Shown: positions 835 to 17,387 of the stretch, in pieces | Position numbering within the stretch: position 1 is the first letter of the stretch | How the letters are laid out: every line of letters begins with the position of its first letter | DNA from: Intoshia linei | Taxonomy: Eukaryota; Orthonectida; Rhopaluridae | DNA: 21,190 nt | Reading direction: 5' to 3' | Assembly: GCA_001642005.1 (NCBI GenBank) | Contig: LWCA01000658.1 | Coordinates: 1-21,190, forward strand | Translations under genes and position numbers: made by a program | Notes under the pieces: model-generated | Databases searched by the model: none | The model's input: the letters and a program-made list of their open reading frames with translations, nothing else | Told to the model about the DNA's origin: nothing

Positions 835-2290
835 TTATTCATAAAATTTTTCCCAATTGTATTGAATAAACAATTGATCATTCAATTTTTCTGTGGATAG
901 ATTTGTTCTTAGATAATTATGAAATTGACAATGTTTCGAAAAGGCTCTTTCAACTTAAGCTTCGGTTAATGGCATATTACATAACATTCTGAATAAAATG
1001 TTATGCACTGGTAATTTTTCAAATGATATTTCCAATCTTAATGCTAATTTTTCTTGTATATTAGATTCTTCTACCTTAAATTCATTGAATTTTTTATTTA
1101 TAATGCAGTAGAAACCCAGTTATTGAAAATATTGTCGTCTAAATCGGAATTTTCAGTAAACATATTAATGCTATCATAATTAAAAAAATATCGAAAATGT
1201 CTAATAATTATTCCAATGTTACTAATTTCGAACATAATCCACCTATTTTTCCATATATTTCGCAAATTATTAATAGTTGAAATTGATAATAAAGATGTTA
1301 TTTCATCAAACCATTCAATATAAATCTTTCTAAAGGCACAAATGACATCAAGTACATTAATCTCATCCTTTTGAATAATCATAAGTTGGGTTGATATTAT
1401 TTTTAAAATTATCACTGCTTGTTTCAATGTATTTTGGGCAACAACTCTACCAAATTCTTTTTTTATAGATATTACTAATTTTCTTATCTAGAATTCCAAC
1501 GTGTTAAATTATATCGGTCCATTAATTTATCTCCTATAAAAGTATCGACAAGTTTTAATGTCTCTTTAGCCTCAGTAATACATGTAAAAATGTCACCTAT
1601 TATCAGATTTAGGATATGAGCAGCACATTTAATATTTATAATATCTATTAACATTCCTTAGACTTTTTTGCATATTTCTAGCATTGTCTGAAACGCAGCA
1701 AAGAACTTTAGCCCCACAATTCTGTAGTTCCAGTATTATTGTATTCAAATGCTCATACAATTTGTCACCACTCTGTTCTTCCATTTCGACGCTACTCCAA
1801 TAAAATACTTTTTTGTTGATATATAACATGACGCATACATGTCTGACTGAGTTGACTGGATTTTTCCATGAATCAAACATTATGGATATTAGCTCAGATT
1901 TAAAGTATCGTTTCATATTTAATTTTTAAGGATAAAGTTTAAACTCTTTCAGATATTATAAATCTTGATTTGCAATGCACACCATAAGCCCACTGAAAAA
2001 TAGGGTCTTCTACAATGTTGAATGGCAAAACGTGATTGCAACAACTTTGTAATTACTTGTCTGTCTATATAAGGCAAATTTGGAAATTTTTCATCTTAAT
2101 TGCTAAAATACTCGTTATTTTTGGCGTGACAGAAACATTGTCCAAGTTACCATGTATTTTTAAATGGTACCTTAATGACGCCACGTGTGAATGAGAATTT
2201 ATGTATTTGATTCTTTTTAAGCATACTAAACATTGCATGTAATTAACTCCGTCTTTTTTAAAGTGTTTTAGTGAATTTATGCTGTTGAAC
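835..2290 (-). pseudogene. Decayed hAT transposase (BED finger, RNase H-like core, dimerisation tail)
   Basis: Conserved hAT pieces lie in the correct order on the minus strand but in different frames. Near 2250-2140 is a BED-type finger (CLVC followed by HLKIH). Near 2030-1980 is VLPFNIVEDPIFQWAYG. From 1910 to about 1640 comes the start of the RNase H-like fold (ISIMFDSWKN, then VSDNARNM). Near 1630-1590 is the KCAAHILNLIIGD block. At 960-835 is the C-terminal dimerisation tail, with ERAFSKHCQFHNYLRTNLS and the final stop at 837-835. The tail has an in-frame TAA at 957-955, where the family normally has Ser or Cys before VERAF, and frameshifts separate the other blocks, so the gene is dead. 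Terminal inverted repeats were not securely found; the GC-rich block near 2484-2541 may be part of the 5' end. Confidence 0.85.
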
Positions 2291-2791: not shown

Positions 2792-3544
2792 ATGATTATT
2801 ATAATTGGCGAAAACAAAATTAATGTAAAACAGAGCAATGTTTGCATTTTTCGGAGAATTGTTGCATACGTTTTCGGAGTATTTTTTATATCCCTCATGG
2901 CTGATTACACAAAACCAGATAATATTTTCAGTTTTTCTCAAAAAAACAGCAATGTAAACAGAATAATGATTAAATATTGTGTCTTTTGGACTCTGTTGCC
3001 ATTGATAGTATACTCAGTAATATCGAAAAATTTTTATTTGAGCATGCAATGTCTAGGAAGAACATTTTATTACTTGTTTACATGGATTATGGCTGTCAGT
3101 GTTATACAACTTGTAAATTATTTTACAAAACAATGTATTTTGTTTGAAAATAGAGAATGTATCAAATTTTGGTCATTTGATATCGGTGGTCATGTAGCAA
3201 TGTTGTCATTTTTATCTTTGAGTATATCACACGAACTGTACTTTATAAGTGATTCTACAGGATATCATGTAAAAAATAATGTAAGTTGGATGTCAAAAAG
3301 TTTGAAAGAAAAAATGGTGTATACTTTATCTGGTAAGAATCTGATTAAATTACCATATAACGGACTTGTGCAACCAATATTTATTCTAGCGACTTTAGTT
3401 TATTGGAAGTATTTACAGATTTTATGGGATGTATCAATATGTATCACTTGCATGTATTACCATAACATGCCACAAAATTTTGCAGGGCTAATCCTTTCGT
3501 TTGCATTGTATTATTGTCGATGTGAATTTTTTTCTCAAATATAA
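2792..3544 (+). CDS. Fitm: FITM (fat storage-inducing transmembrane) family protein
   Basis: The open frame gives 250 residues of an ER multi-pass membrane protein. FITM proteins cleave acyl-CoA at the ER and are needed for lipid-droplet budding and ER integrity (family knowledge). The family signature is present: FDIGGHVAML, with His134, and YYHNMPQNFAG, with His224. These correspond to the two conserved histidines of FIT2. Several hydrophobic segments surround them, for example around residues 24-37, 65-80, 93-110 and 193-222. The start is uncertain. ATG 2792 has an overlapping mini-ORF upstream (2781-2795). An alternative is ATG 2756-2758, which ends exactly at a good donor (GTATGT at 2759) and joins in frame to codon 2834 if AG 2832-2833 is the acceptor (75-nt intron). 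That would replace the first 14 residues by one Met. The stop lies only 35 bp before the next gene. Confidence 0.88.
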   Translation: MIIIIGENKINVKQSNVCIFRRIVAYVFGVFFISLMADYTKPDNIFSFSQKNSNVNRIMIKYCVFWTLLPLIVYSVISKNFYLSMQCLGRTFYYLFTWIMAVSVIQLVNYFTKQCILFENRECIKFWSFDIGGHVAMLSFLSLSISHELYFISDSTGYHVKNNVSWMSKSLKEKMVYTLSGKNLIKLPYNGLVQPIFILATLVYWKYLQILWDVSICITCMYYHNMPQNFAGLILSFALYYCRCEFFSQI

Positions 3545-3579: not shown

Positions 3580-4215
3580 ATGCCTTCATGTATCATTAGA
3601 TCAACATCTTTGAAAAGGTACAATTCAAAAAAAAAAGTTAAATTTGCAGATTCTGTGGGTTTACAACTTGAAAAAATTCAATATCTTAATCTATCTCTGC
3701 AGTCCTATGGATTTCAATCAAATGTAAAACTGAAAGTTTCTCAGATAATTGACAATTCAAAAAGAAAATTAGAATTTATATGTCTATTCTTACCCTCCAT
3801 CAATCATTATAAATTTGTGGATAATGTTCGAAAATTTTACTTAAAACTCAGTTCATGTCTTCCAGATCCGAACAAATTAGTGATAACTTATATTGTTGCT
3901 GTAAACAATATATCATTTGAAAAAAAGGTTGATTTAATTCTGATTTTATAATTTAAATTTTAGGTATTTGTAAGATATTCCATCTCAAATTGGAAGACAT
4001 ACACTGACGTATATGGAAAATTTCAACAACACATCAAACGTGATAACATCGATTATTTTGGTATAATCACCTCTATTCCACACATTTATGCTACTTGTTC
4101 AAATTTTATTGAATTTGTGATAGCTGTAACAATAAACGGGCAGACTTATTGGGACAACAATATGGGATCAAATTACAAAATTATTATCAAATTAAATAAT
4201 ACATTAGATTTTTGA
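3580..4215 (+). CDS. PPP1R3: PPP1R3-type glycogen-targeting subunit of protein phosphatase 1 (CBM21)
   Basis: Two exons, 3580-3927 and 3964-4215, encode 199 residues. These subunits bind PP1 through an RVxF motif and glycogen or glycogen synthase through a CBM21 domain, promoting glycogen storage. The RVxF motif is KVKF at residues 19-22, in the usual 'KKxVxFAD..GL.L' setting. The CBM21 domain covers about residues 68-195, with KFVDNVRKF at its start and the family hallmark WDNNMGSNY at 179-187. The intron 3928-3963 is only 36 nt (GTTGAT...TTTTAG) and contains an in-frame TAA. Removing it joins NISFEKK to VFVRYSISNW, exactly as the family requires. The protein is shorter than the vertebrate paralogues, closest in size to a minimal core. 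It begins 35 bp after the FITM stop on the same strand. Confidence 0.92.
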
Positions 4216-5583: not shown

Positions 5584-6381
5584 TTATCCGACCATATTAA
5601 TAACAGTCAAATGTAAAATGACGTGGGCAAACAAGAAATCAGCTATAGCTCTTTGTTCAGATATTCCCTTAAAAATACTTGCATTTTCACTGTTGAGTTG
5701 AATTCGAAGTGAAACTAAATAATGAAATTATAATGTTTATATAATTTGATAATTATTACGTCCAGACTACCTGGACTTTTTTGAAAATTAAATTGATTTA
5801 ATCAAAAATTAAGAAAATGCATTGCCATAATACTATTAATTCTAAGCATAAAATTTGGTAGATATGAAAACGTAGAAAAAATTAGTGACGTCACAAAGTA
5901 TTCTGACGATTGGAAAAAAAGGTTATAAAATTTTTGTTGGCTAATAGATTAGACCAGAGATTGAGAACATAAAAAATCAACAACAATGTTTTTAATTTAA
6001 AATTTTAGACACTAAGAATGTTATAAAAATATTTAAGTTTTATTTTGGGATTTTACCGCTGGAAATATAAATTAGAAGTTAAAATTTTGGGAATCACAAA
6101 TATTAAGGATATAATAGTTTATATCAATTACCTGCCAAAACAAAGGCGGCAACAGAAGAAATAAATCCAGCCAAAAATGAATTATAAGCAATAGATCCAA
6201 TAGTAATACAATATAGAAATTGACAAATTCCAGTAAATAGTATACATAACAAATACACGTCAATAATTTTCAATGTACTGCCAGTATTAGCGTTATAAGA
6301 ATCACATATTTCATAAAATATACTCTTTGAACTGAATTTTGTGTTTTTAGTGGGAAATTTTGAATTTTTTTTGAATTTCAT
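5584..6381 (-). CDS. Dad1: DAD1, oligosaccharyltransferase subunit
   Basis: Two exons, 6381-6132 and 5714-5584, join in frame (GCA G|TT TCA) to give 126 residues. DAD1/Ost2 is a small ER membrane subunit of the complex that transfers the N-glycan precursor to nascent proteins. The match runs along the whole length: [48 protein letters not shown], and the C-terminal [19 protein letters not shown] followed by a terminal Gly. Three hydrophobic segments are present as in the family. The N-terminus is about a dozen residues longer than the usual 113, starting at the first in-frame ATG (6381); an open frame continues upstream without an ATG. The intron (5715-6131, 417 nt) has a GTAATT donor and a TTTAG acceptor. 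An AATAAA lies on the minus strand just after the stop. Confidence 0.95.
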
Positions 6382-7375
6382 TGGTAGATGAATGTATCGA
6401 ACAATAAATATTAACGTTGTCAATAGAGCATTATTAAAATCTAGATGATGTGTCCTTAAAATGTAAAGTTCAATTTTTTACTTGTTTAAAGTGTTTTAAA
6501 ATTAAAAATAACGGTGTATTTGTTAGTTATACGGTAATTTTCAAGAAAAATACTGAATTACATTGTAATGCTAACCATCAAACTGGTTTTATTTTCAAGT
6601 AATGGAACCAGTTTTATTAATAGACTTTTGTGTCTCCGTTTTGAAATACGACATAGATTATTAACTAAATATATCAGAAATCAGACATTAAAAATTTTAA
6701 CATTTTTGAAATGTTAAATTATCATGTTTCAATTAAACTTTAAAAGAAAATTTAAGGTTATAAAAGATACATTAACTTAAAATTGGAATATTACATTCGA
6801 GGAAGATGACATTTCTTGCGACCTAATGATGGGAAGATTCCTCAATGTTTTTAGAGTGTGCGTCTGTTTCTCGGTATTTGAAATGCATCGAATAATTTAC
6901 CTTTTAATGTTGGAAATCACAACTGTTGAGATAATCTAAGCTTTCCAAAAATCTCAGATTACAGAAAAAATAGAAAAATAGTTGTTCATAGCTAAAGAGT
7001 CACGATCATTCGAAAAATTGAAAAACTGGTTTTCGAATAATTCCGGTTAATCTGAAATATATTTTTTAATCGTAAACTAAAAAATTTCGACTATCCTAAT
7101 AATGTCATTAAAAACACTTCATGTTGATTAAACTTATAAAATATTTTTTAATGGAGATGGTTTACATTCCGTTAGATTAGCTAGGTCAATAGTATTTTGA
7201 AATCATTCCTGAATTAATATGTCAATTAAGTTTCTACTTTCATAATTGGAAGCGGTTTCAGTTAGATATGATTGAGTTACTAAATTTGATAAAATATCTA
7301 TTCGTAATTTTTTCTCAGTATTTGATTTACTCTCCTAGAATCTAAGACCTAGATAATCAAATTTATGGTATAAGG
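6382..7375. other. Long AT-rich stretch, no gene recognised
   Basis: This contains the upstream region of DAD1. At about 6782-6940 the plus strand is open for about 50 codons with fairly mixed composition (it contains WNITFEEDDISCDLMMGRF), but I recognise no family. Near 7010-7040 is a small palindrome, ATTCGAAAA...TTTTCGAAT. Nothing else could be assigned. Confidence 0.3.
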
Positions 7376-7510
7376 CAGGGGTTCCCAAACTCAATTTCGA
7401 TCTCAACTCTCAATCCCAAAGTCGATATTTAATAATTAAAAAAAATATATTTATTACTGTCACATTATATCAGTGGATCCTCAACTTGTTATAAAAATAT
7501 CCCCTTACAA
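7376..7510 (+). mobile_element. Two adjacent hAT-type terminal sequences
   Basis: CAGGGGTTCCCAAACTC starts at 7376 and CAGTGGATCCTCAACTTGT starts at 7471. Both match the widespread hAT terminal consensus (CAGxGGTTCTCAAxCT). They lie downstream of the ZBED-type transposase remnant in its own reading direction, where one terminus of that element is expected. Two termini about 95 bp apart imply a nested or duplicated insertion. The opposite termini were not found. Confidence 0.6.
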
Positions 7511-7744
7511 CCAAAAAATTCATCAACGCTCCACTCTATCCATCTAAAATCGTTTTTTGGGTATAGTGTTTTTATATATTTTTTGCACTTTACAAATTGT
7601 TTAAACAAAACTGCATTGTTTATAATTAAATAAAGTACAAAAAAAATATAAAACCACTTGTAAATAGAATATATAATTTATTTTATAATAAAATTTTACA
7701 ATAAAAATACAAAATGTAGTATTATTAATGTGATATGATATGAT

Positions 7745-8113
7745 ATTTTTTAAAATAGTTTGCAAAACTTCACCAATGACGGGAAATAGTAATGATTCAC
7801 CAATGTTATGGGGTTTTCCAGATTTAACAATCATGAACGAAATGTTGTAAGATGCGATCAAGCCCTCGTTTTGATTTTTTATAGAGTTATTAAACATGTT
7901 TTAAATTGGTGGTTGATTATTAAATGTATCTCGTAGAGTTTTAAAATATAACAAGTCACTATTTAGTTTAACAGGATGAATATTTTTTAAATGATTTAAT
8001 AACCTTGAAGGTTTCATGGCTTCGTTGCTATATACTTTTTGACAAACTAAACACATTGGTAGTGATTTGTTTTGAGGTGATGTGATGAAACCAAATTTTA
8101 AATATTCAATACT
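7745..8113 (-). pseudogene. N-terminal remnant of a ZBED5/Buster-like hAT transposase
   Basis: The minus strand encodes YLKFGFITSPQNKSLPMCLV, then VCQKVYSNEAMKPSRLLNHL, then HLKNIHP. This is the BED-like zinc finger typical of ZBED5-type hAT transposases, with CxxC and two His ligands. An in-frame TAA follows near 7901-7903, after which the same frame resumes with SYNISFMIVKSGKPHNIGE. This is the conserved 'ASY..A..IAK..KPHTIGE' block of the family. After about 7745 the similarity stops. The stop codon and the missing catalytic part show that it is dead. Confidence 0.85.
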
Positions 8114-8248
8114 GTACTGTCTACATTTTTTTGTATGTATTTGTATGTATAAAATATAACAGCGATAATTAAAAGTATAATTGACGTCACAAATTGTCAC
8201 TGTCAACTTGACAGTAATTAACAATAAAGTAAAATAATATAGAAACAA

Positions 8249-8645
8249 TTAAATAAATTTTTAGATTAGTTATCAAGTTTACTAATCATTAGTCATTTCA
8301 ATAAAACATGTGTTGTAAATGTATGTAATTAATAATTAAAATGTTATAATAAAACAATGAACATTGACATAGAACTATATTTTAAATTTGGTACCGCATC
8401 AATTTTACTATACTGAAATATATTAAAAAAAATTTATATTTATGTTTTTATAATCGCCCACTTGTAGTACAAGGCTTGTACCAGTTATGTTTAATTCAGT
8501 CATGGCAATTTTAATAGATCGTTCAATAATTTTATTTTGAGAGAATTATATCTTGTTATGCGATATAAACAAATAATTATCTCGAGTAGAGTAGTTTATC
8601 TTCATCTACGATGCAATTATAATTACTAACTAAACATTAGCAAGG
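8249..8645. other. Non-coding stretch
   Basis: AT-rich, with no coding block recognised on either strand. Part of it may belong to the 5' end of the ZBED-type element, but no terminal repeat was found. Confidence 0.3.
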
Positions 8646-8828
8646 GTGATCGATTTTCTGGTACCAAAAAATTTTTTGAAAGAAACTGAATACAATGACG
8701 CCTGTAAATCTCATAAATTGTCAACGTTTATAACCAAGTTCAGGGAAAAAGACCAATTGCTAAAAGCGGATCAATTTTTGAAAAATCTGTCGCTAATGTA
8801 CTGTAGTGATATATCACTATCGTACTAA
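8646..8828 (+). other. Unrecognised small open frame, possible exon
   Basis: About 60 codons are open, bounded upstream by TAA (8631-8633) and downstream by TAA. The frame has no ATG near its start. The translation is mixed and fairly hydrophilic (it contains FITKFREKDQLLKADQFLKN). A possible splice acceptor, CATTAG, ends at 8640. I do not recognise a family. It may be a single exon, a transposon fragment or chance. Confidence 0.2.
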
Positions 8829-8873
8829 TCGAGATTCGAATATAATATACTTTCGATATAACTCACTTGTGAT

Positions 8874-8946
8874 GTCTAACTGTCAGAGTGGTTATAGCCA
8901 TATCATTGTATTATGCGTGACTAGAGTTTGAATCCCGCTTTGAACA
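8874..8946 (+). repeat. tRNA-like sequence, possibly a SINE head or tRNA fossil
   Basis: TGTCAGAGTGG (8881-8891) resembles the A box and AGTTTGAATCC (8925-8935) the B box of a tRNA-type internal promoter, with the usual spacing of about 34 nt between them. A short T run follows (8949-8953). The acceptor stem does not pair and the T stem is poor, so it is not a working tRNA gene. A tRNA-derived SINE or a tRNA pseudogene would fit. Confidence 0.35.
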
Positions 8947-8953
8947 TCTTTTT

Positions 8954-9301
8954 ATTTAAGATGAATTTATTCGAGTTCCTTTCTGCCAATCGTTACATGT
9001 ACTATAAAAATGAAATTTTTACAATTTATTTAACAGCTATTATCAGTTTTTACCAATTCTATTAACGTATTTTCTAAATATATGGTCAATATTAGTTAAC
9101 AAAAATTTTAAATTAGTATGATGATTAATAGTGGGCTTAGTAAAAATTAATCAGGAGGCTTGACAAATATTAAAAAAAAAATTTCTACTACAACTATTGC
9201 CTCCTAATAATAAAGTAATTTTTTAATGAAACGCTTGGCACATAATAATTATTTAGAGTACCAGTTTAAGATCTATTATTATGGCATAAACCCTTTAAAA
9301 T
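8954..9301. other. Non-coding stretch downstream of the small gene at 9302
   Basis: No gene seen. It includes a short inverted pair, AGGAGGC near 9152 and GCCTCCT near 9199, separated by an A/T-rich run. The pair may mark a small decayed element. Confidence 0.3.
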
Positions 9302-9836
9302 TTACTTTAATGCGGTTTGAAATAAATTCCTTCTTTGTTCTCTAAATAAACTATGTCTATTACATGCGAGGGTTGTATCAATTTCTTTTAAATTATAATC
9401 ACTAAATATAAACATAATAAAATATAAACGTTATAGAATACACAGATTTTTTATTTGTAAAAATATCTACAGAAGCATCCCTATCATCCACCAATCGAAG
9501 ATATTCCTTAAATGATAATAAAAATAAAAGAATATTTTATAATATAATTAATACAATATGTATATTAGGGCTGTTAGTTTTTGACAAAATTCCACCCCCT
9601 ACCTTGAAGAGGATACTCGAAAACCCATAAAAATTTTTTTTATAAAAAAACACTGTAAAAACATCTACACTTTTTGAATATTTTCTTACAAAAAGACAGT
9701 CAAGATTGTCTCCTAATACTATTTTTAAAAACCTATTTTTAACCTGAAAGACTGAATAAATAAACTTTTTATTATATTTTTGCTTATAATGTTTAATCGT
9801 AGAAAATATTCTAACTTGCACTGAAATTAAATTCAT
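9302..9836 (-). CDS. Small three-exon gene, possibly a mitochondrial RRM-like protein
   Basis: Exons 9836-9603, 9506-9442 and 9401-9302 join without breaking the frame and give 132 residues. The introns are 96 nt (GTAGGG...TTTAAG) and 40 nt (GTATTC...TATTTAG). The N-terminus (VRIFSTIKHYKQKYNKK) is basic with hydroxyl residues, like a mitochondrial targeting peptide. Residues 37-100 alternate as in an RRM: LKIVLGDN as strand 1, VDVFTVFFYKKN as strand 2, YGFSSILFKE as strand 3 with an RNP1-like pattern, and SVDIF as strand 4. The last exon is a basic, helical tail (LACNRHSLFREQRRNLFQTA). I could not name the protein. The frame closure over three exons is the best evidence that the gene is real; the RRM reading is inference. 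A decayed copy of something larger is the main alternative. Confidence 0.45.
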
Positions 9837-10428
9837 TGTATTTTTAATTTCAAGGTGAAAAATAAAAAATGTTTATCATTTCGACAATTAGAGAAAATTT
9901 TTTGACGTCTCATCTATTGATGAAAATTTTTATTGTGTATTTATGATGAAAAACTGTATGTGAAATTGTTTGTATGTGTTCATAATGAATACTTCATAGT
10001 AAAAGTCATTATATTCTTTATTATACTTTAATACATTTAAAGATGATTTAAGTTATTCTTAAAAAAGTAATTGCCGGTAGTGAAAATTTTATTCGGTAAA
10101 TTAACAGTAATGAAAAACTCCGTAAAATTGAAACACTGATACATACAAAATCATGACAGAAGATAGAAAATATACTACAAGTAATTAAAATTTTACTTTT
10201 TTCTGAAATAGATGTTTTTTTACAATTTACTAGGGTCCTAACTATGATTATATTGTTTTTAAGATTAACAGTCATTATCATTAGTATTTAAATAGTTAAT
10301 TATAGATAATTAACTAAAAACATAATAATTATTTTAAAATCGGTCTTAAAATGAAAACGTCTGCCTGTGGGAGAGCTAGCTGACGTTTATACAAAGTACT
10401 TAACCATCAGGCTAATAATTTATAAAAT
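9837..10428. other. Intergenic stretch between gp78 and the small gene at 9302-9836
   Basis: The minus strand is open for 77 codons at 10281-10048, but the translation is low in complexity and has no family pattern; I treat it as chance. The stretch must contain the gp78 3' UTR and the promoter of the next gene. Nothing else could be assigned. Confidence 0.35.
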
Positions 10429-12926
10429 TCAAAGTTTAATTACTGGATTTTGGATAATTTCAGAAATAGCGTTATCCATTGAATCGGAGTTATTCATGAC
10501 CGCAGATAGAACCATATTGTATGTTGCACACGGTAATAAATTCATTATTTGAGGTATCTAAATTAATTATAAAATGATTTTAAAGGAATGAACCATATCC
10601 GTGTATGAAAATTGATATTGTGGAAATTCTGTAACTCTACCACTTTCATTAAAGTTGATATTGTTGGTGCGATTTATTTCAAAAGTAAAAACAGGAAACC
10701 AAGATATATATCTGGAAACTACGCAATAGTGAATATTAAATAAAAAATAAGATGTAAAATTACGATTCACAAATAATCTAGAATTTTGATTGTATGAACC
10801 AAAATAATGACTTTGCGTATAAGTATTAGAATATATACAATAAGTTTTTCTACAAGTTGGACATGTCCTATCACGTTCAAACCAAGTTTGTATACAGTGA
10901 CTAAATTAATATAATAATGTACATTTATAAAACCGCAAGTAAAATAAACACATAAACAATAAACCAGTGGTCATAAGTAATATCAAATTAAAATTCTAGT
11001 TTTATTATTCGGACCTTAATTTAAAAAAACCAATTCTAGACAATGGATACAAAAACATACAAAATATAGAAATAAATAAATATTTTACATTTTTAATTGA
11101 CATCAATATAAAGGTAAAATAATGGCCACCCTGATTTATACAATATGACGTTTACCATTCCTTCATAATCAAGTTCATTAAAAATATGTATGAGTCATAT
11201 TTTCTAGAAAAAAATACACGGTAACTCAATATCAACGTTTTTTTAGGTGAAACCAAAGTAGAAAAATAGAATCAATAATTATAAAAGGCTTGAATCTACA
11301 CAATCACATAGTAAAGGGTTAACTGTATTTACAAAAAAATAATACTGATGAAAATAGTGATTGCAAGGTAATTGACGAGCAGTATTCATAGGCATCCAAC
11401 AAATAGAACACATTTGGTGAATAGTTCCAATTTGATCATTTGTAATTAATGGGAATCTAATATTAAATAACTAAAACAAATATAATGAAAACTTTAAGTT
11501 CATGTCTTTTGAAATGTTTCTACTTCTAATGTGTCTGATATATTTATTTAGAATTTTCATTAATATTTTATGGATTCTTGTTACAATAACAATAGTCGCA
11601 ACACTAATTACCAAATTTGCAGATGACCAATTCTATTTTAAATATATAAAAATAATCAGATAAATACTACCAACATATGGAAATGATGGAATAGGTCCAA
11701 TAATAGGTACACTGTATCAAATAAAAAGTCATTGGCATAAATGTACGAAAAATATAGATCGTTGGTATTGTCGTTTCGGTACCATAAATGAATTGAGTGA
11801 CTAAATAGTCAAGCATTACAATAAATAATATTTGTCCGGAATGAGGTACATTGTAAAATAATGTTTTATAATACATTGTTCCCTATACCTAGACGGTAGT
11901 GAGACTAAATTATGTAAGGTAAATAAAATCAGAAATATAATAAACTATCCTTTTATTGCAGTTATTTATTTTATTTAAGTGTTTTTAGTAAATTGAAAAT
12001 AAACTCAAATATTCAAAAAAATTTTGAAAAATGTTACTACATTATACAAGTACACCAAAGTACATTATAATCTAGAAGAAATATACTAATCAAATACTAC
12101 TGGGTATTCAATCGACACATATCAGAAATAAATATTAAGAGGAGTAATTCTAAAATTTTTATAATTTTTTGAATAAAATTTATTAATATTTTGGATATAA
12201 ATTACCTTATTATTAAGTGAAGAGTTTCAATAAATAACATTATACTCTAAATTAATGATAATAAAATTAATATCAACACACCTCATTAATTAAAAGAATG
12301 AAGATGTTCCATCCGAGAGATATGCCAGCAAAAACTGCAATTACGGAGAAAACAGCTGTTAAAGACTGTAACCCAAACAAGAGAAACATCATCCTTACTG
12401 ATTTTTTTGAAAAATGAGTTTCATGTAACCTATCCGAGTGGATAGTTTTTTGAGTAAACATGGATAATCGAAAAGAACAAGCTTTTTGAGTAAGGTGGAC
12501 AAATCCAGTAAATGTAAACCAAAGAAACCACAGGCACAGTGTATTTATGGCAACCACAATAACACCGAAAAGTATTGTAAATTTGTGAAAAATAAAATTC
12601 CAAAACGCGTTTTTAATATATTGTAATTCACTGGTGTTGAGAGATGTAAAAACCCACTTTTCAATAATTTTAGAAACTATCAGCAAATAACATATGGACG
12701 TATTGATCAAAACCCAATTTGATGAAATGTTACCGAATAAAAACGTCATCACATAATATATGATGTTAGAACGAGTTTTTCTACAATTATAATTTAAATC
12801 ATTTGGTAAACAGTGAGTTTTCATAGGTGGATAATTTTTATATGCATATATAGCGGTAGAGACAAATAAAATAGAAGAAAATGCACAGTAATACCGAAAG
12901 ATAACATTCTTATACATATAAAACAT
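10429..12926 (-). CDS. AMFR: AMFR/gp78-type ER ubiquitin ligase (RING + CUE)
   Basis: Seven exons give 500 residues with every junction in phase: 12926-12282, 12246-12206, 11800-11671, 11632-11493, 11456-11346, 10900-10594 and 10557-10429. gp78 is a multi-spanning ER E3 ligase for ER-associated degradation. The N-terminal 300 residues hold the membrane domain; landmarks are FWNFIFHKFTILFG, FTGFVHLTQKACSFRLSMF, HSIHLWYRND and LLLDLFHHFHML. The RING has all eight ligands: C335, C338, C350, H352, H355, C358, C369, C372. SRYISWFPVFTFEI (family 'SR..SW.PSFSVEV') follows, then a CUE domain at about 455-495 (MIPQIMNLLP to SMDNAISEIIQ). Introns are 35, 405, 38, 36, 445 and 36 nt. The protein ends six residues after CUE, so the G2BR and p97-binding VIM of vertebrate gp78 (643 residues) are missing. 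About five residues after HHFHML are also missing relative to the human protein. Confidence 0.94.
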
Positions 12927-15060: not shown

Positions 15061-15305
15061 ATGCATTCGGATAGATTTGGGTTGTTCATTTTAAATAATG
15101 TACAATTATTAGACCGCGGAAACATCTTACCAGTACGCCGAATGAAGCAAAATATAAAAATTCGGAATTTTCTAGACGAATAATTCAAAAAATGTCTTCC
15201 ACGTACGATGATGAAATCCCCTTATTAGATGGTTAATTTTATAAAATATAAAATAATTACATAAATGTAGAATTGGGAATTAATTTTGATCATATAAGAA
15301 GAAAG
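15061..15305 (+). CDS. YIPF5: First exons of a YIPF5/Yip1-type Golgi-ER protein, rest not found
   Basis: Three short exons join in frame: 15061-15080, 15113-15231 and 15271-15305. The last two give DDEIPLLDELGINFDHIRRK, which matches the highly conserved 'PPLLEELGINFDHIWQK' start of the YIPF5/YIPF7 domain. Yip1 proteins are five-pass membrane proteins of ER exit sites and early Golgi that bind Rab GTPases. The intron 15232-15270 (39 nt, GTTAAT...TGTAG) is strongly supported because it restores the motif. The intron 15081-15112 (32 nt, GTTGTT...TTATTAG) and the ATG at 15061 are less certain; ATG 15192 is a possible internal start. A GTGATT donor follows codon AAG at 15305. No exon for the membrane part was found in the remaining 5.9 kb, so the gene continues beyond the window, across the whole kekkon-like gene, or is a broken copy. 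Confidence 0.78.
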
Positions 15306-15331: not shown

Positions 15332-17387
15332 TTATAAAACTGTTTCATATTTCAGCATATCTTTTTTAATAGAATGTGTTGTAAGTATTTTTACATTATT
15401 TTCTTTGTATGGTATAATTTGTATAGCAGTTGTTGCGATTGTATTATCTTCACCAACTTCTAAGTCTTCTGTTTGAATATGTAGCAAGTTGTCTATTTTG
15501 GTCCAAACATTATCATTTTTTGAAATGTTTTCTTCAGTAGGTGTGAACGTGGTATCAGTATCTAACATGATATTGTTGTGATAAGTTATGATTTTATTGG
15601 TTTTGAAAGTCGATATTTTTTTAGATTCTATATTTTTCTCTAAAATTCCAGTAATATTGTTAGAATATTTGGTTTTATAAATTCCGGGATCTGAATTGTT
15701 GCGGCGAATGGATTTATTTTTATTACCATATAACTTTTTTTTGATTTTATGATCATTATACTTCCTAAAAATTACGCATACCATTAGCATACAGCTGAGA
15801 CTCAGTAATATAGAAATTCCTATTATCATTCCAATTACGAATTTTTTATTTATTATACTGTTCTTTGATTGAACAGTGTTGGGAATAATTGTCTTAGTGG
15901 CGTTGTTCAAATTAAATATTTTTTTTTCATCCTGTACTAAATTATAGATGAGTTCATACGAACCTCCTATGTTACTGGCTTTGCAATGATACATTTGAAA
16001 ATCATTTAATGTTATATTTTTTATAACTAGAAGACTTGTAATCTCATTGCTTGTTGTGTTAATTTTTTTTTCGTTTTTGTCTATTCCTAAATATAATATA
16101 TATCAATGTTTCGCAGACTGGATTTAATTTATATTTTAGCAATGCATCTAATTTTTAGAACAAAAGATGTATCATTTTTGTGTTACTAATATATCAGCGA
16201 TTACCAAAGTCTTAAATGTACAAATGCTCATTTCATAAAAATGTCTCTCGCCCCACAATCTTTTACAAATTGTCTATCACGCGGGTAATTTGTAATAAAG
16301 CAATTTTAGCCATCCATGATGCGATAATTAATATACAATATTCAAAAATTAAAAATGTAAATAGTAAAGCCTCAAATATCTATTGCTCACAACAAAACAT
16401 TGCGTTATGTTATTAATTTGGACTTTGCTTGAAATTATCATATATTACCTTTGTGTAATGTAGCATCGTAAGCCCAAGTTATATTAGGCCTAGGGTCTCC
16501 ATTTGCATTACATTTTATATTAATAGTTTCTCCTGGCGATGCACTAATAATAGTTTCATTGTATCCATTCGTAATTTTGGGAGGACAAGCAAATTGTAAA
16601 TAATCTATTTCGTCCCAACGCTTATTCTGCAGATTTATGGGAGAATTGCATTTTGGAATATTTATTGAAAATTTCCAGTGTAACTTATGATTTGATTTTG
16701 TTAAAAATTTCTTTAACCACTTTAAGTGGCAAGTACAAGACCAGGGGTTATCGTGTAGTCTGAGCACTTTCAAGGTTGAAGGGAAATATTTTTCCATTTT
16801 ATGACTTAATCCTATTATCCTGTTTTTTGATATATTTATTTCATTTAAATGTACCAGTCCTTCCATCCATTCATAATCTATCCATTTGATTTTACAATTA
16901 GCTAAATTCAATTGTTTCAATGAAGTTAAAACAGTCAAATCCTGTGATTCTATATGGGTGATTGGATTGGATTCTATATTAAGATAGTCTATTTTCTTTA
17001 AATTAGATAGACCAAGTTTTGGTATTGATTCAAGATTATTTCCTTTAAGACTCAATATTCTAAGATGATAAAGTCCCCCAAACGCGTTTTCTGCTATTGA
17101 TTCAATTTTATTATTTGACAAATCCAATTCTTGTAGTCGCGTATATCTCGAAAACCTTAAATTAAAATTGTAATTTTGAAATATTTTGTAACTTACATAT
17201 TAACATATAAATTGACTAAATTGTTATCATTGAATCGTAAGATGGTGATATCAGCATCTATGGAAGAAGGTATTTCATTTAGATGGTGATTTTCACAGGA
17301 TGCTGTTTTTTGACCCAGTATTGTTGTGATGACGCATTGGTTTTGTATGTTTTTTAGAAGAAAAACAAAAAACACATATTTTAGCAT
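15332..17387 (-). CDS. kek: Kekkon-like LRR-Ig transmembrane protein
   Basis: Exons 17387-17197, 17155-16449 and 16086-15332 join in phase to 550 residues. Kekkon proteins are single-pass neuronal/epithelial receptors; Kek1 inhibits EGFR signalling and Kek5 modulates BMP signalling (family knowledge). MLKYVFFVFLL is a short signal peptide. GQKTASCENHHLNEIP (25-40) is the kekkon-type LRR N-cap, but its first cysteine pair is reduced to one Cys. About six LRRs follow, then an LRR C-cap (NPWSCTCHLKWLKKF, near 202-255), one Ig domain (Cys in IKCNANG near 280, Trp in ITW, Cys334 in YHC), a membrane span at about 382-406 and a 145-residue tail. The tail ends in ETVL, a class I PDZ-ligand type. The start is the first ATG in the exon; the longer open frame upstream has no ATG. 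Introns are 41 nt (GTAAGT...TTTAAG) and 362 nt. The stop lies 26 bp from YIPF5 exon 3 on the other strand. Confidence 0.9.

Follow-up and report, generated by a model that had tools for sequence, protein, structure and literature searches.

Short introns, an altered donor consensus and U1 snRNA paralogues with complementary 5′ ends predicted in the orthonectid Intoshia linei

Short introns of Intoshia linei were reportedly described by Mikhailov in 2016. The introns of this orthonectid are given as short, mostly >30 bp, with a median of 57 bp (PMC6543705). The mini-introns of dicyemids are shorter: those of Dicyema measured 26.2 nt in an early set of 16 introns (PMC2222250), and a later source gives a median of 27 bp, about two thirds of the introns being shorter than 30 bp (PMC6543705). 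As for donors, 53.6% of human sites are GURAG and metazoans stand at about one to one (PMC11732430). In yeasts the absence of METTL16 goes with +4U, SNRNP27K has been linked to the +4 preference, and the U1 sequence ACUUACC is invariant (PMC10581693). U1 paralogues suspected of special roles are described from humans and planarians (PMC5159530; PMC6312358), and unusual donors with a link to U6 m6A are described from an animal, Fritillaria borealis (PMC13326754). Here we compare with these systems a stretch of I. linei DNA of 21,190 nucleotides (the window) and further loci of the species. The short size class is real and already known for I. linei; a change at the donor, well supported by prediction with controls, appears to be new relative to the short introns in print, and we found neither it nor the accompanying U1 changes in the limited literature searched.

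An earlier note, made from the letters of this DNA, had read nine short introns and five longer ones in the window, and most of them could be placed (Table 1). Five of the nine are well supported: those of 35, 38, 36 and 36 nt in the gp78/AMFR-like gene, where the gene finder or frame reading agrees with the residues of the deposited I. linei protein A3Q56_04825, and that of 36 nt in the PPP1R3-like gene. Those of 41 and 39 nt come from the gene finder or from direct reading only, and those which by elimination are 32 and 40 nt, in an RRM-like gene, were not located, no RRM_1 match being listed on the window contig. The longer introns of 362, 405, 417 and 445 nt were all found, and the one of 96 nt was not located in the window.

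Table 1. Exons and introns read in the window, with the evidence for each.
Feature	Position	Strand	Support
PPP1R3-like gene intron, 36 nt	3928..3963	+	Pfam CBM_21
DAD1 (OST subunit) intron, 417 nt, donor GTAATT	5715..6131	-	sole frame-consistent pair in searched window; A3Q56_04825
gp78 last exon, to stop	10429..10557	-	direct reading
gp78 intron 6, 36 nt	10558..10593	-	better of two candidates; A3Q56_04825 residues identical
gp78 exon 6	10594..10900	-	direct reading, A3Q56_04825
gp78 intron 5, 445 nt, interrupts RING	10901..11345	-	sole frame-consistent pair in searched window; Pfam; A3Q56_04825
gp78 exon 5, RING first half	11346..11456	-	Pfam, frame reading, A3Q56_04825
gp78 intron 4, 36 nt	11457..11492	-	sole frame-consistent pair in searched window; A3Q56_04825
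gp78 exon 4	11493..11632	-	direct reading, A3Q56_04825
gp78 intron 3, 38 nt	11633..11670	-	two frame-consistent GT..AG pairs; A3Q56_04825 fits 38-nt form
gp78 exon 3	11671..11800	-	direct reading, A3Q56_04825
gp78 intron 2, 405 nt, donor GTAATT	11801..12205	-	sole frame-consistent GT..AG pair in searched window; A3Q56_04825
gp78 exon 2, 41 nt	12206..12246	-	direct reading, A3Q56_04825
gp78 intron 1, 35 nt	12247..12281	-	gene finder + A3Q56_04825 residues
gp78/AMFR-like exon 1	12282..12917	-	gene finder + deposited protein A3Q56_04825
YIPF5-like fragment (15192-15305) intron, 39 nt	15232..15270	+	direct reading; LLD joined to ELGINFDH
LRR-Ig (kekkon-like) intron, 362 nt, donor GTAATA	16087..16448	-	Pfam Ig_3
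LRR-Ig (kekkon-like) intron, 41 nt	17156..17196	-	gene finder only

The residues of A3Q56_04825 are identical at seven of seven junctions, namely the six of gp78 and that of the 417-nt DAD1 intron. A protein search with exon 1 of gp78 by itself gave no match, probably owing to a limit on length. The deposited protein places the gp78 start nine bases upstream of the exon 1 start read here (12917), and it departs from the last gp78 exon ahead of the stop and continues on. With 724 aa over 5584-12926 (- strand), it fuses gp78 with DAD1 through a linker, part of which the open frame 7901-8248 also covers; the model looks chimeric, because gp78 in our reading has its own stop at 10429. It also removes 45 nt within exon 6 (10719-10763, - strand, donor GTAATT), a segment that leaves the frame open if retained and that may be an alternative intron or a model error. 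Second candidates exist for intron 3, for which a 35-nt alternative (11633-11667) likewise keeps the frame, and for intron 6, for which a rival 78-nt form scores lower. The last exon is presumably CUE-like, and the spliced protein has no Pfam CUE match.

The introns have the GT..AG ends of the U2 type and their removal restores conserved protein, except, by Pfam score, at the join 17156-17196. Taking out gp78 intron 5 raises zf-RING_2 to 44.1 bits, where the two halves score 21.9 and 20.7, and the alignment to AMFR RING chains runs through the junction. Joined and separate scores are 124.8 against 62.7 and 50.6 bits for DAD at the DAD1 intron, 71.8 against 13.5 and 50.6 for CBM_21 at the PPP1R3-like intron, and 52.9 against 29.1 and 17.5 for Ig_3 at the 362-nt LRR-Ig intron. 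The 41-nt LRR-Ig join is without Pfam support, because LRR_8 reaches 73.2 bits joined and 110.1 in the open frame of the second exon alone. The motif ELGINFDH, which we take to be that of YIPF5, follows the 39-nt intron; later exons of this gene were not found in the window, where the LRR-Ig gene lies on the opposite strand of the stretch that follows.

To count introns more widely, we used a two-strand gene finder with a near-flat intron-length prior, trained on 285 kb made up of the window and 55 further sequences, and kept only introns with strong coding flanks in this training set and three further loci (n = 190). The earlier note had proposed a genome-wide count; ours covers about 0.29 Mb, and in it 98 of the 190 predicted introns measure 32-45 nt and four are shorter. 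The remaining bins hold 4 introns (<25 nt), none (25-31 nt), 15 (46-60 nt), 15 (61-100 nt) and 58 (>100 nt), with a median of 43 nt; scoring by GT/AG only gave 2, 4, 88, 20, 15 and 61 for the six bins in order of length, and a median of 46.5 nt. At least 32 nt were thus found in 186/190 introns, with 4/190 (trained) or 6/190 (GT/AG-only) below. The four of 18-24 nt we take, without proof, for errors of the gene finder. A single log-normal class does not describe the lengths in this set, with a BIC of 242.5 for one component against −12.8 for two and −25.2 for three; the centres of the two-component fit lie at 38.7 and 206.7 nt. Of the 59 loci, 20 were chosen because they carry kinase exons next to one another, mostly at short distances, and this inflates the share of short introns.

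Several controls bear on whether the class is genuine. In a run that predates the choice of close-exon loci (window, 20 contig starts, three RRM loci and nine snRNA loci), GT..AG yielded 25 introns of 32-45 nt and three decoy dinucleotide pairs yielded 4, 5 and 6; a later coding model found 58 against 5-13 for six decoys. This last run, the RBM39 and U2AF2 counts, the G+C contrast, the 16-motif scan and the comparison of +5 with intron interiors used a smaller intron set, in which genes cut at locus ends are lost. Between pairs of kinase exons, with no splice model, 16 of 44 gap estimates fell at 29-53 nt and the rest at 63-2593 nt, some of the latter lying within one reading frame and being insertions. 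With introns of 33-42 nt removed, the CDK5 and PLK4 orthologues can each be aligned to solved structures with a single gap of one residue. The RBM39-like gene has mostly introns of 33-46 nt, as does the U2AF2-like gene, which has two longer ones in addition. Retention would bring an in-frame stop in 119 of 158 short introns, a figure raised by the gene-finder method; the frame and stop analysis of introns of 3n length was dropped because it is by stops that the gene finder recognises an intron. That these segments are retained, or are artefacts of gene finding, is scarcely credible to us: the junctions are predicted ones, but the decoys, the restored domains, the deposited model and the stops all speak against it.

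Compared with the published data, most introns exceed 30 bp both in print and here, and the printed median is 57 bp against our 43, taken from 190 predicted introns of a partly chosen sample (PMC6543705). The resemblance to dicyemids lies in a narrow short class in a simplified parasitic spiralian (PMC6543705; PMC6736024; PMC2222250). The dicyemid median of 27 bp, however, lies below the I. linei floor of 32 nt, under which only 4/190 introns fall, and most introns here are not <30 nt. The earlier note had placed these introns near the lower limit reported for animals; with short introns already printed for I. linei and shorter ones for dicyemids, they do not mark an animal limit.

The donors were examined in 184 predicted introns of 28-1000 nt (183 with GT/AG-only scoring). 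The expected metazoan pattern, in which about half the sites are NN//GURAG, was not found: GTRAG donors number 5/184 (4/183 with GT/AG-only scoring). AG precedes the cut in 58 donors, GTRAG follows it in 5, none has both and 121 have neither, so that I. linei is like metazoans in the former and unlike humans, with their 53.6% GURAG, in the latter (PMC11732430). Instead, GTAATT (39, with 3.5 expected) and GTAAAT (17, with 4.0 expected) rank first and second of 256 in enrichment, expectations being taken from 14490 intergenic GT sites; GT/AG-only scoring gave 35 and 16 of 183. GTAATT is 11-fold enriched over other GT sites, and the hypothesis that GTAAGT is as enriched was rejected (p = 0.005). 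At +5 the 184 donors have 102 T, 60 A, 13 G and 9 C, T being preferred over A relative to intergenic GT sites (p = 3.6e-5), and at +4 they have 96 A and 75 T. Misplaced donors are not hiding GTRAG, as it occurs anywhere within −15..+20 in only 6 of 108 short introns. The change is found in short and long introns alike. In the short ones, +5 and +6 are close to interior composition (0.025 bits at +5, with a null 95% point of 0.082), and the +5U preference is therefore clearest against intergenic DNA and in long introns, where +5 is T in 40/71 and T makes up 39% of the interior.

To look for counterparts in the splicing machinery, we searched 34.65 Mb of assembly in 1319 contigs (those of seen size all >10 kb; possibly less than the whole genome) and found six U1, three U2 and two U6 genes. 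Three of the six U1 genes have ACUUACC. Of the others, L030 (UCAAUUACCU) has AAUUACC and scores 74.3 bits, above the Rfam cut-off of 69.5, and is complementary to AG|GUAAUU; L031 (UUAAUUUACUU; 58.4 bits, under the cut-off) has AAUUUAC shifted by one base and is complementary to A|GUAAAUU, if, by our reading of the alignment, it starts one base later than the spacing of the other U1 genes requires. The altered ends thus match the pair of donors with the highest enrichment, which two random AT-rich tetramers would do as well with a probability of 0.0015. The third, L032, has a diverged 5′ end and scores 36.3 bits, also under the cut-off. Started where the covariance model puts it, it matches no donor; with the start set by promoter spacing, its end UAAUAUAC would fit GUAUAU, a weak case with 6 observed and 3.1 expected.

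All six U1 genes keep ATTGCAC, presumably the conserved U1 loop, and the element CGTTCGCG (AATTTAT or AATTTGT), which we take for the Sm site, and 14 of 38 predicted pairs show two-sided changes among them. The loop I sequence GATCA, assumed to be the U1-70K site, is present in L027, L030, L031 and L032; L028 and L029 have GGACA there together with a canonical recognition sequence. Upstream, the promoter element GAATAAATTATG occurs with 0-1 mismatch in 6/6 U1 genes (at −71; at −76 in L032) and exactly at −76 in both U6 genes, and the three U2 genes lack it (3-5 mismatches). These same genes served to define the element, whose background of 1.3e-4 per 7-nt window comes to about 1e-3 over the 50 positions scanned; in a scan for shared upstream motifs the score was 92, and 30 shuffles reached at most 87. 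A candidate common 3′ box, AATTAA..AGA, was noticed by eye only. A U12 candidate (L037, 1399-1529) scores 35.8 bits, under the cut-off of 53; as it carries the snRNA promoter element at −72 with one mismatch, a minor spliceosome may exist. From these features of their sequences we infer that L030 and L031 may be expressed and functional.

The match between U1 and donors is less clear in other measures. With A at U1 position 4, donors are best separated from other GT sites in three of three sets, a gain of about 0.02 AUC over C that carries no p-value; elsewhere, at positions 3, 5 and 6, the canonical base leads in all but one comparison, where it falls 0.001 behind. By duplex energy, canonical U1 and L030 separate donors with AUCs of 0.795 and 0.793 in short introns and of 0.836 and 0.830 in long ones, and canonical U1 still forms all intronic pairs but one with GUAAUU, an equality that speaks against the need for a variant. 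The exon-side donor bases do not track the U1 variants: GTAATT donors are not rich in −1G, to which L030 could pair (16/39), −1A, which would suit L031, is found at 4/17 GTAAAT donors, and −1G is rarer among +5T donors than among +5A donors (p = 0.02 for trained and 0.14 for GT/AG-only scoring).

Both U6 genes carry ACAGAGA and depart from the family consensus at a single base, three positions upstream of it. For the METTL16 family (PF05971) no candidate was found in the 34.65 Mb of contigs, the profile controls having matched in 5 of 14 genomes; human METTL16 as a query gave nothing at E<=10 in the same sequence, without a positive control, and MT-A70 (METTL3/14/4) gave no match, nor did its controls. 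No paper on Intoshia and METTL16 was found in the literature searched. SNRNP27K is present and keeps the stretch QYMNR, whose M we take to be M141. I. linei thus resembles the Saccharomycotina in that METTL16 was not found, in the mixture of A and T at +4 and in keeping SNRNP27K, and it differs in being an animal, in having +5 changed too and in having ACUUACC in 3/6 U1 genes instead of invariably (PMC10581693). Fritillaria borealis, with its non-canonical splicing, is likewise an animal whose donors are unusual and connected with U6 m6A; there, however, METTL16 is present and the U1 5′ end strictly conserved (PMC13326754). Human and planarian variants are alike in being U1 paralogues with altered 5′ ends, and those of I. 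linei stand out in that the ends match the two most enriched donors (PMC5159530; PMC6312358).

We lean slightly towards an account in which introns of the U2 type shrank to a minimum of about 32 nt, +5U/A took the place of +5G in the donor and paralogues of U1 changed in its wake; for this last step, following the donor is the best explanation we have, one that we believe and doubt about equally. The donor +5 base pairs with C42 of U6. Movement of the consensus from +5G to +5U (or A) should therefore weaken this pairing, U1 paralogues with C4->A and related changes would restore pairing with U1, and the failure to find METTL16, the U6 m6A writer, would fit a donor that leans less on U6. A wider version we hold more tentatively and with some doubt: a genome-wide change to +5U/+5A with the U1 set partly rewritten (AAUUAC/GUAAUU, AAUUUAC/GUAAAUU and perhaps UAAUAUAC/GUAUAU), possibly after loss of the U6 m6A writer, as a natural compensatory co-evolution. 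It is conceivable, if rather doubtful, that AT mutation pressure is at work by itself, selection at +4 to +6 having been relaxed so that canonical U1 and U6 splice all introns and the variant U1 genes decay or have another task. The G+C of about 25% in window and loci, the short-intron +5 and +6 near interior composition, the equal discrimination of donors by canonical U1 and the scores of L031 and L032 under the Rfam cut-off would all agree with such pressure. Composition alone, however, would not be expected to enrich GTAATT 11-fold and beyond GTAAGT or to favour +5T over +5A, nor would decay be expected to leave the variants with their promoter element, AUUGCAC and GAUCA loops and paired stems, and with ends complementary to the two most enriched donors.

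The earlier note was right about the short introns of the window, and its interpretation is partly supported. It had seen them as minimal introns near the animal limit, with the key change in the branch point and U2AF, which we consider improbable. In its favour are the sharp floor at 32 nt and the acceptors, TTTAG-like as it had stated (T at −3 in 105, at −4 in 75 and at −5 in 79 of 113 short introns), and also the lack of any branch-point motif: among 16 fixed motifs compared with dinucleotide shuffles in 109 introns the best was TTGAT (17 against 11.0, z 2.3, unconvincing among 16), no 5-mer or 6-mer exceeded the null maxima in 158 introns, and for TACTAAC the best match in the 158 did not surpass that in shuffled sequence (4.20 against 4.33). 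But dicyemid introns are shorter, the donor change extends to long introns, and the branch-recognition sequence of U2 is the canonical GUAGUA in 3/3 genes found. A U2AF large subunit-like gene is present, with TIGR01642 matching exon by exon under the whole-protein cut-off and one RRM_1 match after splicing. The change found here is in the donor and U1, and is absent from the earlier note. A U2AF-independent route for short introns, like that reported for human SPF45/RBM17 (PMC8363638), we think very improbable; the T-rich tract of the short introns, only about four bases before AG, would suit it, but long introns have the same T at −3 (65/71), so acceptors do not look split by length. Under the account we favour, short introns would probably be recognised as units through their AT-richness and TTTAG (U2AF), with a degenerate branch point. 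The branch point of C. elegans is degenerate. The G+C of short introns is 15.0%, against 25.0 in long introns, 31.8 in exons and 25.1 in intergenic DNA; decoy introns are likewise AT-rich (17.5-20.6%), we think from overlap with real introns, and there is no clean control for the short-intron value.

Few RNA sequences are as conserved as the 5′ end of U1, for which Zhuang and Weiner reportedly made a compensatory version in the laboratory in 1986. If our account is true, donors and U1 paralogues that shifted together would be a natural case of such compensation and would make it possible to test to what extent splicing requires U6 m6A and U6 pairing at +4 to +6, and which signals are enough in introns of 32-45 nt. 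Orthonectid genes may be misread where gene finders have been trained on GTAAGT.

Finally, some genes of I. linei were read without introns. The SF3B4 gene is intronless, and its predicted protein is identical to the deposited one. In the window, a gene of the FIT (fat storage-inducing) family, also intronless, lies at 2792-3544 (+ strand; 26.2 bits, cut-off 21.4), and transposase-like remains, presumably of hAT type, lie at 1629-1925 (- strand), with neighbouring frames to 2322 (DUF659, 31.9 bits, under the cut-off of 34.7).
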